IMG/VR virus record: IMGVR_UViG_3300005613_000320
Span: 1 to 28,771 of that record
Source of the DNA: a virus
DNA length: 28,771 nt
Direction: 5' to 3' (one strand)
Position numbers and translations under genes: made by a program. This document shows, one piece after another, positions 3,351 through 23,214 of the stretch (position 1 is its first letter; the number at the start of each line of letters is the position of its first letter). The notes under the pieces were generated by a model. That model was not told where the DNA came from, searched no databases, and worked only from the letters and a program-made list of their open reading frames with translations.

Positions 3351-3377
3351 GGGGTCAAGCAATTGACCCCTTTTTTT
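3351..3377 (+). terminator. Rho-independent terminator after gp32
   Basis: A perfect 8-bp stem GGGGTCAA (3351-3358) with TTGACCCC (3363-3370), GCAA tetraloop of the GNRA class, followed at once by seven T. It ends the gp32 transcript before it runs into the opposing gp54-like gene, whose stop codon overlaps the T tract. Confidence 0.92.
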
Positions 3378-4185
3378 ATGCAAATGGGTTTCTTACAGCA
3401 GTCACATCACTTTCAAATTTCTTCTGATCACCTTCATAAGAAATACGATCAACATAATAGTTTTCGTAAGTTAGATTAACTGTTGTTTGAATTAGTTGTG
3501 CTCCACCATACTGCAATGGTGCAGAAACAACACTTCTAGGGAATGCACCAGTCAAATTATAAGTGATTGTGCTTGGCGGAACCGATAGATTTGCTTCTAC
3601 AGTATCAAAGTCCTGATTTGCTTGAATAATTAGTTTATTGTTATCTGAGAACGCTTCCCGACTAAATGCAGATATTTGAACTTTGCACTTATATTCTTCA
3701 GGGTACTTCATTTTTCTATATGAAGCAGTTGCATCAATTCGTTCTCTTGTAGAAGAACCATGCCCACCACCCGCAATATATGTTGGTGAGATGAACTCTA
3801 ACCAAGCATTGAAGAGGTCATTAGTATAATAGTCTTGCTGGGTGAAGAATACTAATTGAATATCTGGAAATTGTCTATAATATGCATACTTACTAACAAC
3901 ACCCTGTCTTAGACCCCTTGCTTCACCAACTTGTAGGTCAGAACCTGGAAGAACTGCCTGTGAGCAGAATAAAGCCATGTAATCGCCGGGATTACTTGTA
4001 GTATTGGGTCTGTGTTGATTGAGAAAATTTTTCAGGTTGCCTGATGTGGTATTGAAGTCAATCCAGACATCATATAGGTTGTTAAACGCTGGTACAATGC
4101 TATTTTTAGCACCTAGATTGTACAATTCCCACGACGGCACATAGTATCTCTTTTCTGTAATTACATTTTGACTACTCTTTGCCAT
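3376..4185 (-). CDS. gp54-like baseplate tail-tube initiator
   Basis: A 269-residue protein with a tail-tube-type fold signature at its C-terminus. TYNLTGAFPRSVVSAPLQY near residue 209, then IQTTVNLTYENYYVD, parallels T4 gp54 (FTGCIPISVSAPELSYDG followed by a T-V-F-Y strand). In T4, gp54 sits on the gp48 cap and starts polymerisation of the gp19 tube. The first half (WELYNLGAKNSIVPAFNN) is not recognised. It lies on the minus strand, unlike gp48, gp53 and the other baseplate genes here, and is convergent with gp32. No clear ribosome site; a TATAAAC-like late element is about 15 bases upstream. A gp19-family tube paralogue is the alternative. Confidence 0.65.
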   Translation of the reverse strand: MAKSSQNVITEKRYYVPSWELYNLGAKNSIVPAFNNLYDVWIDFNTTSGNLKNFLNQHRPNTTSNPGDYMALFCSQAVLPGSDLQVGEARGLRQGVVSKYAYYRQFPDIQLVFFTQQDYYTNDLFNAWLEFISPTYIAGGGHGSSTRERIDATASYRKMKYPEEYKCKVQISAFSREAFSDNNKLIIQANQDFDTVEANLSVPPSTITYNLTGAFPRSVVSAPLQYGGAQLIQTTVNLTYENYYVDRISYEGDQKKFESDVTAVRNPFA

Positions 4186-4192
4186 CTAAATA
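4186..4192 (+). promoter_or_regulatory. CTAAATA late promoter motif
   Basis: CTAAATA begins one base beyond the start codon of the minus-strand gp54-like gene and points to the rightward genes (NUMOD protein, gp4, gp48 and on). Transcription would begin near 4199, just before the start at 4215. Confidence 0.5.
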
Positions 4193-4198
4193 CAAGGA

Positions 4199-4206
4199 CG
4201 TTTATA
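4199..4206 (-). promoter_or_regulatory. Possible late promoter of gp54-like gene
   Basis: The minus strand reads TATAAACG here, matching six of eight bases of TATAAATA, 13 bases before the ATG of the gp54-like gene. With the plus-strand CTAAATA at 4186-4192 it would make a compact two-way promoter region. Weak match. Confidence 0.3.
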
Positions 4207-4214
4207 TAGTATGT

Positions 4215-4619
4215 ATGTCTATTAGCGAAGCTTTGGGTATGCTTCCCTTTGAGGTCGATTTAGATAGTGCTAACTTTGAACCCTTTGATTGCTATTCACA
4301 ACCAGAACGCGAACGAAAAAGCAATATAACTTCATTTTATTGGAACAATCTTTCTGGTGAAGAAAGACTGGGGCGACTTGAAAATCACGGAATGACTGGA
4401 AAGAAACATTCCCAAGAAACCCGTGAAAAAATGTCTAAAAGTGCGATTGGAATAGAGCGTCCCAATATACGCAAGGCGGGCACTATTATAGCACCAAACG
4501 GTAAAAAAGTCAAGTTTCGATGTATATCACATTTTTGCAAAGAACATAATTTGCATAAGGGTCATATTACTGAAGTTTTGCAAGGTAAGAGAAAGTCACA
4601 TAAGGGGTGGCATCTATGA
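4215..4619 (+). CDS. NUMOD-type DNA-binding protein without nuclease domain
   Basis: A 134-residue protein. Near residue 60 is GKKHSQETREKMSKSAIG, a typical NUMOD3 repeat. The C-terminus (from GTIIAPNGKKVKF, ending in LQGKRKSHKGWHL) looks like the helix-turn-helix NUMOD1/IENR type found at the end of GIY-YIG and HNH homing endonucleases. No GIY-YIG or H-N-H catalytic motif is present, and the N-terminal 40 residues (MSISEALGMLPFEVDL) are not recognised. It may be a decayed homing endonuclease or a stand-alone DNA-binding protein. ATG 4211 is out of frame; a TTG at 4179 would lie inside the divergent gene. The stop overlaps the gp4 start (ATGA). Confidence 0.6.
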   Translation: MSISEALGMLPFEVDLDSANFEPFDCYSQPERERKSNITSFYWNNLSGEERLGRLENHGMTGKKHSQETREKMSKSAIGIERPNIRKAGTIIAPNGKKVKFRCISHFCKEHNLHKGHITEVLQGKRKSHKGWHL

Positions 4620-16987: not shown

Positions 16988-17710
16988 TTATTCTAAGAAC
17001 CATTGTTGGTTATCTGGATCTTCCAGTGCTACAATTAGATTTTGTTTCTTGACGATTTCACCTTCTAACTGAACTTTAGCAACATCATAACCATATTTTT
17101 GTAGTTGATATCTTGCTCTTTCTTCTTTCAAGATATTGATTTCTGTGATTACCTCATTTCGCTGTGTGCGGAGTGGGGTAATTTGTGCTTGCAAATTACT
17201 GATAGATGTAGCATATCCGGCACAGTCTACTCCATCATCTGATGCAAAGTTTGCATATGTACCAATAGATACTGTACTAATACCATTATAAGTTCCAACG
17301 CCTAGGTTATTTGCTGTGAGAACTTGCTGGGATTGGGAGAATGGATTTGGTGAAGTAAACGACCAGATGTGTAGATTGACCTGATCACCAATAACTGATG
17401 TTACAGTTGTTCCAAGACCCACACAGCCAAATGCGTTAGCAGATTGTCCTAAACCAACAATCTGTTCTTGTAGATTTCTGATTTGGTTGTTTAGTGATAG
17501 AATTCTGGTATCTAAACCTTTTGTAGAAGGGTCAAATCTATTGATCTGATCGTTGACGCCTTCGATAATTGCTGTCGGTTCTTCATCTTCTTCAGTTTTA
17601 ATTACAAGACCTTTAATAACTTGATCTAACTGCTCTAACTGTGTTTGATCTTGTTTAATTGCACGCTTATAAGATTCAATCAAATACTCCGTTTCTGGAC
17701 CGGCAGGCAT
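16988..17710 (-). CDS. Coiled-coil virion structural protein
   Basis: A 240-residue protein. Two long helical arms (about residues 10-95, rich in LEQLDQV and LNNQIRNLQEQI heptads, and about 180-235, LQAQITPLRTQRNEVITEI) enclose a small strand-rich globular middle containing FGCVGLGTTVTSV and VNLHIWSFTSP. This hairpin-with-head plan suggests a trimeric or dimeric fibre or connector. I do not recognise a T4 counterpart. ATG 17710 (MPAGPETEYLIESY) is chosen rather than GTG 17758, because a TATAAATA late promoter on this strand (17747-17740) would lie inside the longer reading and the GTG start would overlap the facing gene. Confidence 0.7.
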   Translation of the reverse strand: MPAGPETEYLIESYKRAIKQDQTQLEQLDQVIKGLVIKTEEDEEPTAIIEGVNDQINRFDPSTKGLDTRILSLNNQIRNLQEQIVGLGQSANAFGCVGLGTTVTSVIGDQVNLHIWSFTSPNPFSQSQQVLTANNLGVGTYNGISTVSIGTYANFASDDGVDCAGYATSISNLQAQITPLRTQRNEVITEINILKEERARYQLQKYGYDVAKVQLEGEIVKKQNLIVALEDPDNQQWFLE

Positions 17711-17712
17711 GG

Positions 17713-17720
17713 TATAAATA
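17713..17720 (+). promoter_or_regulatory. TATAAATA late promoter for 1820-residue fibre gene
   Basis: An exact T4-type late -10 octamer, 31 bases before the ATG at 17752. It lies just upstream of the minus-strand ATG and faces the opposing late promoter at 17740-17747. Confidence 0.75.
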
Positions 17721-17739
17721 ACTTGAAGAACGGTGTCAG

Positions 17740-17747
17740 TATTTATA
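17740..17747 (-). promoter_or_regulatory. TATAAATA late promoter for minus-strand structural gene
   Basis: The minus strand reads TATAAATA exactly, 29 bases before the ATG at 17710. Together with the plus-strand copy it forms an inverted pair separated by 19 bases, so the two transcripts would overlap by only a few bases at their 5' ends. Confidence 0.72.
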
Positions 17748-17751
17748 GGCA

Positions 17752-20700
17752 ATGCCACTAAGCAGACTAGAGAATTTCCTTAAGAACGTTCAGGGTAATG
17801 TAATTTACGTTAACCCAGAAGAACTTGATGCAACAGACGATATTTCCAATACTGGCAATTCAAGAACTCGTCCTTTCAAGACGATTCAGCGTGCCCTGAT
17901 TGAGTCTGCTAGATTTTCCTATCAGTTGGGTAAAGATAACGATAGATTTGATAAGACAACTATTTTAGTTTCTCCTGGTGTTCACTACATTGATAACCGC
18001 CCAGGTTTTTCTATTGATACTGGTGGTAACATTGAGGATGTAAATGGTAGTGCGGCATCGATCAATCAACTGACTACCGAATCAAATTTTGATATTCAGG
18101 ATCCAAACAACGTTCTTTATACTTTCAACTCCACTGAAGGTGGTGTAATTCTACCTCGTGGTACATCGATTGTTGGTCAGGATCTTCGTAAGACTAAGAT
18201 TAGACCAAAGTTTGTACCAGATCCATCAAACGATAATATTTCCCGTTCTGCACTATTCCGTGTAACTGGTTCCTGCTGGTTCTTTGGATTCAGTTTCTTC
18301 GACGCAGATCCTAACGACAGAATTTACAGAGACTACACAACTTCTGTATTCACCCCCAACTATTCACACCACAAACTAACCTGCTTTGAGTATGCAGATG
18401 GTGTGAATATCATTTCGGGTAAGGGTAACACCGATCTCGATATGTACTATCATAAGCTTACGCTTGCTTATGGTACAAGTTCTGGTAGAGCACTACCTAA
18501 CTATCCTGCTAATGATGACTTTGAAGCAGTAGTAGATGAGTACCGTATTGTTGGTGCTATCTCCCAGGTCGGTGCAATTCAAATTGAAGACATCTATTCT
18601 GGTGCTACCCCAACAGATACAACTGCAACATCTATTGTTACAGTAGTCACAGAGACTAACCATGGTTTCTCTGTAGGAACTCCTATTCTGATTGCTGGTG
18701 TTGATAACGCTGAGTATGATGGTAGCTATGTTGTGTCTCAAGTACAAAGCGACACTGTATTCACATATTCTCTAGCGAATACTCCAACATCTACAGCAAC
18801 ACCAAACCTTGCCGGTAAGAACCCAACAGTAGAAGTTGAGTCTGATAGTGTATCTTCTTCTTCTCCATATATCTTCAACTGCTCCATCAGATCGGTATTT
18901 GGTCTGAATGGTATGCACGCCGATGGTAGCAAAGCAACCGGATTCAAGTCCATGGTTGTGGCTCAGCTAACCGGTATTGCCCTAAACAAGGACGACAACG
19001 CATACGTCAAGTATAATTCTACAACAGGTATTTACCAAGATCAGGCAGCTCTAGGTTCTGGTGTATCACTACACACAGATAGTCTTGCTAGACATAAACC
19101 AGAATGGCAGAACTTCCACGTCAAGGTATCTAACAACGGTATTATTCAGGCAGTTTCTGTCTTTGCTATTGGTTATGCACAGCATTTCGTTGCTGAGTCT
19201 GGTGGTGATATGTCTATCACCAACTCTAACAGTAACTTTGGTGCAAAATCTTTGGAAGCAGACTTCTTTAGAAGAGAAGCATTCCTCAAGGATGACCAAG
19301 GTTATCTGACTGAAATTATTCCTGCTCAGCAGAATCGTAGAGCAGCAAATGCAGTCAATTATCTACCACTTGATGTAGAAATTATTTCTGGTGCTGGTGC
19401 TACAGATACTAGACTTCACTTCTATCAGTTCAACAGAATTGATGCACCACCATCAAAGTTTGCGAGTAATTATATTGTTGGTGCAAAGACTGACGATCTT
19501 CTGTTCTGTAACGTCAATAACGTCGTTTATTCTGCACCAATCGTAATGCCTGTTCCTGGTGATGAACCAGACGACAGAATTGCTACTAAGAAAGAATATC
19601 TAGTTGGTAGAGTATCTGGTATAAACTCGATCACTGGTAGCACACTAACACTACAAGAGAACCACAGACTACTGCCTGGTGAATCTATTAGAATTTTCTC
19701 GAAAGATGGTGACCTTCCTGATGGTCTTGAGCATAGAACTGTATATTATGCAATCACTGAAAGTCTGAATGCAGACCAGATTCGTATTGCTTCTACTTAC
19801 AACAACGCAATTAACAATAGTAATCTCAGCAATATTAACAACCTGGGAGGAGAACTACGTGTCGTATCTTTAGTATCTGATAAAGAACCAGGAGATCCAG
19901 GTCATCCAATTCAGTTTGATACTAGCGGTTGGTATATCAACGTTGGTGCTGGTAATAGTCTTGCTTCAGGTATCTCGACACAAAGATCTGTAGTTACACC
20001 TAAAACTGGTAATAGTTTCATCAGCAGAACTGATGATATTAGAACTGATGATCAGAAGTCTTATCAACTAAGATATTCTATTCCACAGGTATCTTCTCTT
20101 GCTTCACCACCACAGAATGGTTTCTCGATTGAAGAATCTAGTGCTGTTATTGACGACGATAACTTCCAGAACGATAATACTGCACTAACATCAGTTCAAG
20201 ATCTTCGTACCAAGACAAACATCATCAACGCATCTTGGTCCTCTAATGTTGGTGTTGTTACTACACTATATCCACACAAACTGAAAGAAGGTCAGTTGGT
20301 TGAAATCCAACGCCTGAAGTCTACTAACAATGAAACCGGTGCTCAGAACTCAGGTTTCAATGGTCTATTCGTTGTTTCTGATGTTGTTGACCGTGTTACT
20401 TTCAACGTTGGTCTGAACACTGACCCAGGTGGTATTTCTACCATTGCTTCTAGTTCTAACAATGTTCCATATACATTCTATGATAGAACAATTATTGGTT
20501 CTGGTAGAACTGATTCTCCATACTTTATCAAGCGTGATTTTGGTCCTTCTTATCAGATCTATGATCAGACTGAAATTCAAAGTTATACACGAGATGTCCA
20601 AGATGGTGTCTATGATCTAACTATTCTTGGTTATCTTGATAATGTTGCTGTTACACCATTCTCCACAGCATCCAATAAGTTCCCACAGAACTATGCAGAT

Positions 20701-23214
20701 CTAATTCCAGTCAGTGGTCAGGATAATGTTATCGATGATCCTCAGGCAGCATCCAGTTATGCGATGCGTAATATTATTGGTCAGGTAGAAACAAGTGACC
20801 CTGCTGATAGTGTTACAAGGGAATCTTTGGATAGTTTCCTAGAGCAAACTGGTATTGGTATCGGCATTACAGGATCTTCTATTTCTGGTGATACGGTAAC
20901 TATTCAGACTGAGGTTGAGCATGGTCTTCGTGGTATTAAAGAAATTACTCTATCCAATGCCGGTGCTGACTTGGGTGATAATAGTGGATCTGCTGAGTTC
21001 TACTTTAATATCCGAGCAGAAGGTGGTTCTGGTACAGGTTGCCTAGTTGATGTAACGGTCAACGCAGCAAGTGTAGTCAGTGCAATAACAATTAGAGAAC
21101 CTGGTAGTGGTTACACTGTTGGTGAAACATTAACCTTACGTGGTCTTCCAACACACGGAACTCCTACTGCTCCAACTATTGATGTTGATACAATTTACAA
21201 TGAGGTTGGTGATGTTATTCAGGTTATCGGTGTTAGCAGCGAGACCTACAACGGTCTATACAGAATCACTTCTATCCCCGACAATAAGCAGATCAGCTAC
21301 ACTGCGGTAGCAGGTGCAGCGGCAACTGATGGTATCTTCTATCATGTTGGTGTTGCTACAGATATTCAGACTATTTCACATGACCCCAGCAGCGGTATTG
21401 CGACGGTCACAATGCTTAGTGATCTTGGTCTTCGCCGTGGTGATCAAATTGTTATTGATGGTTGTACTGGGTTCTCCACAGTCTATAACGGCACACACTT
21501 TATTATTGATCGTATTGGTTATGGTTCTTCACTAACAGTCAATCTTGGTATTACAAGTAATGCTCCTGCACTGACTGGTGTAGCAACAGCACACGGTACA
21601 GGTTTCTCTGTCCGTGGAAATGGTCGTGGTGTTCCAATCTATGGTGGTAAGACACTAGAACTAACTTCTGGGATTACTACAACCACAACAACAATCAACC
21701 TGACCGAGAACGGACTAGATGCATCTGTTCAGCGTGGTGATTACTTCTTGATTGAAAGTGAAATTGTTAGATCCACAAATGGCGGTACTGGTTTCATCCG
21801 TGCTTGCCTAGGTTCTAATGCTGCACCACACGATGCAAACGTCAAAGCAAGGAAAATCAACCCACTACCAGTAGAGAACCGTAGATATTCTATTCTACGT
21901 GCTTCTGGTCATACGTTTGAATATGTTGGTTTTGGTCCTGGTAACTATTCTACTGCGATGCCGCAGACACAGGATAGAGTTCTAACTGAGAACGAGAAAG
22001 TTATCTCCCAGTCACTACAAACTCGTGGTGGCTTGGTTGTTTACACCGGCATGAATGATGTTGGTGAATTCTTCATCGGCAGAACTAAGTTTGATCCTAC
22101 AACTGGTAAGCAAGAAACATTTGGTTTCGATGCTGCTACTGAAGGTGGTACAATCAATGAAGACTCGACAAGTCTAACAGTTGATAATCTAACCGTCAAT
22201 GATAACCTTCTAAGTCTAGGTAACACCGAAGTTATTTGGCTAAGTTTGAAGGGTAATCGCTTCTCATCAGATATCAACAAGAACGTTACTGTTGGTATCC
22301 GTGACGGCAATGATTGCCCACCAACAAACCAGAACAACGATAACATTCTATTCAGAACAGAATGGGATCGTGGTGGTTACATGGGTTGGGTCAGAACCAA
22401 CGAAGCAGTTGCTGATCAGCGTTGGAAGCGTTTCGGTCTAGTATCACACGAATGTACTTCCGAACACTACTCAATGGATAAGTTGGGTGTTGGTGTTACC
22501 TACGCGATGGACATTTCTGTTCTATCGATTTCTGGTTTCAGTACATTCAGTGGAGATACATTCACAACTGGTTTCAGCACAGTAACAAGAGATGTAAACA
22601 TTGGCGCTGGTCAAACATATCGCGTCAATAGTAATCCACTACTACCAGTTGGTATGGTTATGCCTTTCGCGGGTACAACTGCACCACCACTTTACAGGTT
22701 CTGTGATGGTTCTGAAGTTTCTAGAACAACATTTGCAGCACTATTTGAAGCCATCGGTACGCAGTACGGCGCGGGCGATTCTAGTACCACGTTCAACTTG
22801 CCAGATATGCGTGGTCGCGTGATTGCTGCTCCTGATAATATGGGTGGAACAGCAGCAAATAGATTGTCTGGTCAGACAGCGAACTCTTCACAGTCTACCA
22901 ACTTCAATGCTCCTGGTGTAACTGGTGGTGATCAAGAGCACGTTCAGACAGTTGCTGAAATCGCAACGCACGGTCACGCTGGTTCTTCTACTGATAATGC
23001 TTTTACTGGGGTAAATGACAATGCTGTCCAACATCCAGTTGCTGCTAGCTTAACATCTGGTGGTTCGGGTGTAAGTCGAGCAAACGCCACCCAAACCGCA
23101 ATTGATCTGACGCACAACCACACCGTTACAATCGCTAACAACGGTTCTAGTCATCCAATGAACAATGTTCAACCAACAATGGCTATGAACTACATTATCT
23201 TTGCGAATGCCTAA
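17752..23214 (+). CDS. Giant beta-helical fibre protein with tail-collar domain (gp12-like C-terminus)
   Basis: An 1820-residue protein. The N-terminus (QGNVIYVNPEELDATD, then SRTRPFKTIQRALIESARFS) and residues to about 520 have a pectate-lyase-like parallel beta-helix character, ending in SITNSNSNFGAKSL. The middle (520-1620) repeats modules of the form T-x-x-x-H-G-L...G-D-x-V-x-I...Y-N-G-x-Y-x-V. From about 1629 a Phage Tail Collar domain begins (VGMVMPFAGTTAPP, FCDGSEVSRTTFAALF, FNLPDMRGRV) with H1740-x-H1742 and H1788-x-H1790 metal-site candidates, as in T4 short tail fibre gp12. It probably forms baseplate-attached receptor-binding fibres. A TATAAATA promoter precedes it; its stop is part of CTAAATA for the next gene. 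Confidence 0.8.
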   Translation: MPLSRLENFLKNVQGNVIYVNPEELDATDDISNTGNSRTRPFKTIQRALIESARFSYQLGKDNDRFDKTTILVSPGVHYIDNRPGFSIDTGGNIEDVNGSAASINQLTTESNFDIQDPNNVLYTFNSTEGGVILPRGTSIVGQDLRKTKIRPKFVPDPSNDNISRSALFRVTGSCWFFGFSFFDADPNDRIYRDYTTSVFTPNYSHHKLTCFEYADGVNIISGKGNTDLDMYYHKLTLAYGTSSGRALPNYPANDDFEAVVDEYRIVGAISQVGAIQIEDIYSGATPTDTTATSIVTVVTETNHGFSVGTPILIAGVDNAEYDGSYVVSQVQSDTVFTYSLANTPTSTATPNLAGKNPTVEVESDSVSSSSPYIFNCSIRSVFGLNGMHADGSKATGFKSMVVAQLTGIALNKDDNAYVKYNSTTGIYQDQAALGSGVSLHTDSLARHKPEWQNFHVKVSNNGIIQAVSVFAIGYAQHFVAESGGDMSITNSNSNFGAKSLEADFFRREAFLKDDQGYLTEIIPAQQNRRAANAVNYLPLDVEIISGAGATDTRLHFYQFNRIDAPPSKFASNYIVGAKTDDLLFCNVNNVVYSAPIVMPVPGDEPDDRIATKKEYLVGRVSGINSITGSTLTLQENHRLLPGESIRIFSKDGDLPDGLEHRTVYYAITESLNADQIRIASTYNNAINNSNLSNINNLGGELRVVSLVSDKEPGDPGHPIQFDTSGWYINVGAGNSLASGISTQRSVVTPKTGNSFISRTDDIRTDDQKSYQLRYSIPQVSSLASPPQNGFSIEESSAVIDDDNFQNDNTALTSVQDLRTKTNIINASWSSNVGVVTTLYPHKLKEGQLVEIQRLKSTNNETGAQNSGFNGLFVVSDVVDRVTFNVGLNTDPGGISTIASSSNNVPYTFYDRTIIGSGRTDSPYFIKRDFGPSYQIYDQTEIQSYTRDVQDGVYDLTILGYLDNVAVTPFSTASNKFPQNYADLIPVSGQDNVIDDPQAASSYAMRNIIGQVETSDPADSVTRESLDSFLEQTGIGIGITGSSISGDTVTIQTEVEHGLRGIKEITLSNAGADLGDNSGSAEFYFNIRAEGGSGTGCLVDVTVNAASVVSAITIREPGSGYTVGETLTLRGLPTHGTPTAPTIDVDTIYNEVGDVIQVIGVSSETYNGLYRITSIPDNKQISYTAVAGAAATDGIFYHVGVATDIQTISHDPSSGIATVTMLSDLGLRRGDQIVIDGCTGFSTVYNGTHFIIDRIGYGSSLTVNLGITSNAPALTGVATAHGTGFSVRGNGRGVPIYGGKTLELTSGITTTTTTINLTENGLDASVQRGDYFLIESEIVRSTNGGTGFIRACLGSNAAPHDANVKARKINPLPVENRRYSILRASGHTFEYVGFGPGNYSTAMPQTQDRVLTENEKVISQSLQTRGGLVVYTGMNDVGEFFIGRTKFDPTTGKQETFGFDAATEGGTINEDSTSLTVDNLTVNDNLLSLGNTEVIWLSLKGNRFSSDINKNVTVGIRDGNDCPPTNQNNDNILFRTEWDRGGYMGWVRTNEAVADQRWKRFGLVSHECTSEHYSMDKLGVGVTYAMDISVLSISGFSTFSGDTFTTGFSTVTRDVNIGAGQTYRVNSNPLLPVGMVMPFAGTTAPPLYRFCDGSEVSRTTFAALFEAIGTQYGAGDSSTTFNLPDMRGRVIAAPDNMGGTAANRLSGQTANSSQSTNFNAPGVTGGDQEHVQTVAEIATHGHAGSSTDNAFTGVNDNAVQHPVAASLTSGGSGVSRANATQTAIDLTHNHTVTIANNGSSHPMNNVQPTMAMNYIIFANA

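Follow-up and report, generated by a model that had tools for sequence, protein, structure and literature searches.

At the locus considered here, two genes are read in opposite directions from a short intergenic region, a tail fibre gene to the right and a gene for a 240-aa protein to the left, and two exact copies of the motif TATAAATA face inward between them within a 35-bp stretch (17713-17747; Table 1). The window, meaning the whole 28,771-nucleotide stretch of the IMG/VR record IMGVR_UViG_3300005613_000320 that was analysed, appears from its size and gene content to be a fragment of a T4-like genome, and the locus group to which it belongs consists of marine T4-like viruses related to cyanobacterial phages. 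The first-pass annotation had described two exact late-promoter motifs, inverted and 19 bp apart, and both their coordinates and their orientation are confirmed in the window sequence; the start codons it assigned, at 17752 (+) and 17710 (-), are also right, the latter being where the alignment of relatives begins. Upstream extension of the plus-strand gene is blocked by an in-frame TAG (17746-17748), and the minus-strand reading frame stays open past its ATG, up to a GTG at 17758.

Table 1. Genes and predicted transcription features of the divergent locus, in window coordinates
Feature	Coordinates	Strand	Description
Divergent gene	16988..17710	-	240 aa; coiled coil with an inserted beta region
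Predicted 5' leader, minus-strand mRNA	17711..17734	-	24 nt, start at 17734; includes the plus promoter; T4 convention
Predicted late promoter of the tail fibre gene	17713..17720	+	TATAAATA; -13 to -6 by T4 convention
Inter-motif spacer	17721..17739		19 bp in the window, 18-21 bp in relatives
Predicted 5' leader, fibre mRNA	17726..17751	+	26 nt, start at 17726; includes the minus promoter; T4 convention
Predicted late promoter of the minus-strand gene	17740..17747	-	TATAAATA; in 13/13 loci with a divergent gene and 1/68 without
Tail fibre gene	17752..23214	+	1820 aa; phrog_529; tail-collar-like C terminus; cyanophage-type

A tblastn search with fibre residues 1-333 matched 460 phage records, all of them named Synechococcus, Prochlorococcus, cyanophage or marine virus. 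The 240-aa protein has its nearest named relatives in S-CAM9-type phages and in a single-cell phage that is unannotated, and its comparison with Pfam, NCBIfam and PHROGs gave weak matches only, those in Pfam and NCBIfam lying under the curated cut-offs. Its AlphaFold model (mean pLDDT of 86.5) had no match in the PDB at E < 0.001 and three among viral folds at the same threshold, namely one uncharacterised S-CAM9 protein and two unnamed proteins.

Exact TATAAATA occurs four times in the window (17713+, 17740-, 24897+ and 26222+) against 1.58 expected, and four or more exact motifs were present in 6 of 100 shuffles of the window, so that the count of four is not striking by itself. Of 1500 windows simulated at the same composition with a first-order Markov model, one had an exact face-to-face pair with a spacer of 10-40 bp. 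When late-type motifs were searched for on both strands, 14 were found (seven NATAAATA and seven CTAAATA), of which 13 lie on the plus strand, and the sole exception is that at 17740-17747. Chance pairing was rejected as unlikely on the strength of the simulation together with conservation in relatives.

The T4-type late promoter motif TATAAATA/NATAAATA is present in exact form on both strands of the window. In T4 the late motif spans -13 to -6, as described in PMC1524935, and NATAAATA is given as the cyanophage late-promoter consensus in PMC2984593, which also reports homologues of g55, g33 and g45 in all cyanomyoviruses. A gp45 sliding-clamp model gave one weak, sub-threshold match in four records, and the same model missed P-SSM2 too.

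Relatives were chosen in two ways, by the fibre protein and by the minus-strand protein. The fibre-based sample comprises the window and the 80 best among at least 581 viral-contig matches (81 loci in all), among which near-copies are included and the rows are unthinned in the counts of motif and gene. The plus motif, as ATAAATA or CTAAATA, lies no more than 60 bp upstream of the fibre gene in 81/81 loci. A divergent gene was counted where a minus-strand frame of 108-248 aa had its ATG 41-53 bp from the fibre ATG, a definition that left out 113-aa minus-strand frames 6 bp from the fibre ATG (L033, L034 and L038) as well as shorter frames and frames beginning farther off. On this basis, the exact minus promoter, seen as TATTTATA before the fibre ATG, is present in all 13 loci with a divergent gene versus a single one of the 68 others (L021), an association for which Fisher's test gives p = 4e-14 if relatedness is ignored. 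On a tree of the fibre N-terminus the minus motif requires only three changes, and the tree offers two (supported branches) to four (all branches) independent comparisons; because these are so few, the association cannot reach significance with relatedness counted, and it rests on few independent evolutionary changes.

Three loci illustrate how the minus side varies. In L022 a gene of the 240-aa type is followed by one of the 108-aa type, both on the minus strand; in L020 the former is absent and the 108-aa gene stands directly behind the same minus promoter; and in L021 neither gene is present and the minus motif is still kept. The arrangement in L020 and L021 reads as recent gene loss. The 108-aa gene (L020:934-1260, minus strand), which comes second to the 240-aa-type gene in L022 and replaces it in L020, corresponds to phrog_6464.

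The second sample, obtained by scanning with the aligned protein family of the minus-strand product, yielded 22 loci, in 21 of which the region is visible (L099 is truncated). Here the plus motif is exact in 21/21 and the minus motif in 19/21, with AATAAATA in the remaining two (L100 and L111); since AATAAATA falls within NATAAATA, a minus motif of the form NATAAATA is present in all 21 visible loci. The layout recurs, with AATAAATA, in the single-cell phage AG-345-D19. Among named phage records with a homologue of the minus-strand protein, this is the only one with divergent genes; in the nine from Synechococcus phages the homologue and the fibre gene share one strand. In L112 the minus-protein homologue is interrupted (267-1003), its 737-base match holding eight stops in one frame, through either a frameshift or a sequencing error. 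The loci L113-L131, found by a pattern holding both motifs, are excluded from all counts.

The comparison of the intergenic region in relatives supports the earlier proposal that each promoter serves the gene lying beyond the other one, both motifs being retained where the divergent gene is present rather than one of them alone. Among 12 T4-like genomes searched, neither an exact facing TATAAATA pair nor an exact outward-facing control pair was found (0/12 each), and facing NATAAATA pairs occur only in T4 (two, at genes with hairpins) and in AG-345-D19 (at this same locus). Of 20 contigs from which the loci were taken, every one of the 12 that carry the minus motif was matched at this place, one of them also at a second place, and none of the eight others was. 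In record G016, which has an extra pair at 31286, a plus-strand reading frame seems, by eye, to lie directly upstream of it. No face-to-face late promoters in T4-like phages were found in the literature searched, in which subscription journals are thinly covered.

Conservation of the minus motif was assessed against the background divergence of the fibre gene. In nine representatives, 46 fourfold sites were compared over the first 233 codons of the fibre gene and none is identical in all, pairwise identity at such sites being 26-74%, and these sites are near saturation. At the minus motif, seven core bases are identical in all nine and the eighth base in eight. By comparison, in 39 same-clade relatives that lack the minus gene the place of the motif is taken by 19 distinct 16-base strings, none of which contains TATTTAT. 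Some of these forms are close to the motif: L042, L045, L046 and L048, which are without a minus gene, carry GGATTTATAGG, one base off GTATTTATAGG, and a single base, GGATTTATA versus GTATTTATA, divides some motif-less leaders from motif-bearing ones. Neighbouring leader columns are conserved as well among the nine representatives, and part of the conservation of the minus motif may serve the fibre leader. Within the spacer, TGAAG...GTGTC (17722-17737) is conserved in relatives both with and without the minus gene and, because it is also present without that gene, is not explained by the promoter pair. It coincides with the predicted RNA start.

Taken together, the comparative evidence supports two real late promoters, and it is likely that the locus has two distinct T4-type late promoters, which face and overlap each other and drive divergent late genes, the fibre gene to the right and the 240-aa gene to the left. 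Transferred from T4, the late-gene start sites would lie at 17726 (+) and 17734 (-), and the predicted plus- and minus-strand transcripts would overlap by 9 nt.

Among the competing explanations, the one that survives best, although improbable, is a switch of the type found at T4 gene e and I-TevI, in which the late promoter and its complement form the two arms of an RNA hairpin and the second motif is no promoter; the start codon would be hidden in read-through transcripts, and transcripts begun at the late promoter, which do not contain the 5' arm, would be translated. A late-promoter hairpin blocking translation is described for I-TevI and implicated for segB in PMC3014915. The only two facing NATAAATA pairs in T4 precede segB and I-TevI, and these two leaders fold well (z of -6.7 and -4.0). 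The locus does possess such arms, a late promoter on the 5' side and its complement beside the start codon, which are able to pair, and L009 folds well (z of -4.9). However, L009 is the only one of six plus-strand leaders with the pair whose stem goes well beyond shuffled sequence; the other five fold ordinarily (z of -0.4 to -1.4), and the window itself gives -1.4 on the plus and -1.8 on the minus strand. Further points against the hairpin are that the 3' arm is absent in relatives that lack the minus gene and in those with a plus-strand gene directly upstream, where read-through is likeliest, that the plus promoter changes to CTAAATA without a matching change in the other arm, and that L100 and L111 lose the end pair with no compensation, the promoter still being legal. 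A T4-type RNA hairpin is weakly supported, and it could coexist with both promoters.

Slightly less probable still is that only the plus promoter works, the minus TATAAATA being fortuitous or part of the leader and the minus-strand gene being read from inside the fibre gene. The general conservation of the leader and the occurrence of GGATTTATA leaders without any minus gene are in keeping with this, as is the other minus-strand gene of the window (3376-4185), which has no consensus late motif in front. Against it stand the distribution of the minus motif over loci with and without the divergent gene (13/13 versus 1/68) and the invariance of its core over nine lineages whose fourfold sites are close to saturated.

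That other minus-strand gene forms a second divergent pair in the window. It belongs to a tail-tube family, and its ATG abuts a plus-strand CTAAATA (4186-4192). No facing consensus late motif was found within 90 nt of it, nor, by eye, in 23 of 24 relatives (those with the region visible); as a repeat of the layout described above the pair is not supported. Because this gene has none within 90 nt, a minus-strand late gene need not have a facing motif. Some 20 bases upstream of its ATG the window has a conserved stretch, TATATAAACGTC, which is not a late consensus; 23 of 24 relatives share it, and the remaining one is truncated. An HNH/homing-endonuclease-like reading frame (4179-4619, plus strand) adjoins a head-closure gene in this part of the window.

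If both promoters are active, their spacing has consequences for polymerase occupancy. T4 gp55 open complexes are reported to be melted from -12 to +2 (PMC7892883), with the clamp at the upstream end of the late complex (PMC7892883, PMC2988020). By analogy with T4, a gp55-type RNA polymerase would open 17714-17727 for the plus-strand gene (start at 17726) and 17733-17746 for the minus-strand gene (start at 17734). Because this geometry puts the melted regions 5 bp apart, two polymerases on both promoters at once are implausible. Complexes would be expected to collide, such that one genome copy would serve one direction at a time, by chance, and many genome copies would allow both mRNAs to be made. 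Late in infection, many genome copies would allow both genes to be expressed together. The first-pass annotation had further proposed that the genes are fired alternately from one shared site, which is unsupported, as steric exclusion yields random competition, not alternation. A site deliberately alternating between the two genes is very unlikely: the overlap does imply, by T4 geometry, that the polymerases exclude each other, but neither a regulator site nor a timing signal nor a precedent was found, and competition at bidirectional promoters is random and strength-dependent. At E. coli bidirectional promoters, according to PMC12825309, competition is negligible at basal activity and appears once one direction is strongly activated. 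A palindromic operator bound by a dimeric regulator controlling both genes, for which the exact 8-bp inverted repeat might speak, was rejected as scarcely credible on account of its variable half-site spacing (18, 19, 20 and 21 bp), and its repeat units are exactly the phage late-promoter consensus.

A more speculative extension of the two-promoter reading concerns the sliding clamp of replication. A T4 late promoter is activated by this clamp only if the orientation is right, and the orientation is set by the strand with the 3' end (PMC2988020, PMC7892883). It is conceivable, but a long shot, that clamp polarity chooses the direction at this site. Were this true, clamps of opposite polarity would license opposite promoters, with fork direction or the nicked strand deciding which gene is read, and a fixed fibre-to-partner ratio would be obtained without a regulator.

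The origin of the arrangement can be approached through S-CAM9, which has a homologue of the minus-strand protein (26% identity, 226 aligned residues). There the gene is on the plus strand; it follows another gene directly, precedes the tail fibre gene and has no late motif just ahead of it. In the window's group the gene is inverted relative to S-CAM9 and set against the fibre promoter. A search of 16 records without a 240-aa-type gene at this place gave no family match elsewhere in the contig, records which are possibly fragments; two control records with a 240-aa-type gene were both matched. Probably, a gene that belongs to a plus-strand late operon in S-CAM9-type phages ended up in inverted orientation next to the fibre promoter, and the minus motif would then have formed inside the fibre leader, the one-base change separating some leaders being compatible with either direction. 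The loci constitute a natural set, some members having and others lacking a second late promoter within the same 35 bp, and some forms being one base apart. They open the questions of how a promoter can newly form in the leader of a different gene upon gene inversion and of how clamp-activated late promoters, which have no -35 element, behave on collision.

The locus can be compared with several known systems. Like T4-type late promoters dependent on gp55, gp33 and gp45, it has the exact consensus at promoter distance before two genes, one of them a late structural gene; unlike them, two such promoters overlap head-on. With the hairpins of T4 gene e, I-TevI and segB described in PMC3014915 it shares a late promoter and its complement flanking a leader, whereas those cases involve one gene and a stable RNA stem and here there are two divergent genes and mostly ordinary folding. 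The bacterial bidirectional promoters of Warman et al. (PMC12825309) resemble it in having divergent genes and opposing polymerases that exclude each other (a property that would follow here from T4), but they are described as having a single symmetric -10 element, transcription starting next to it or inside it. In place of one shared -10, the locus has two separate -10-like elements 19 bp apart, with predicted starts between them and a predicted 9-nt transcript overlap. The strict published definition of a bidirectional promoter does not cover it, and it is not a proven switch either. The pR-pL region of phage 186 is a case of face-to-face promoters forming a regulated lysis-lysogeny switch, in which the promoters are more distant than here. 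The locus is a late-promoter version of a known arrangement, real and conserved.
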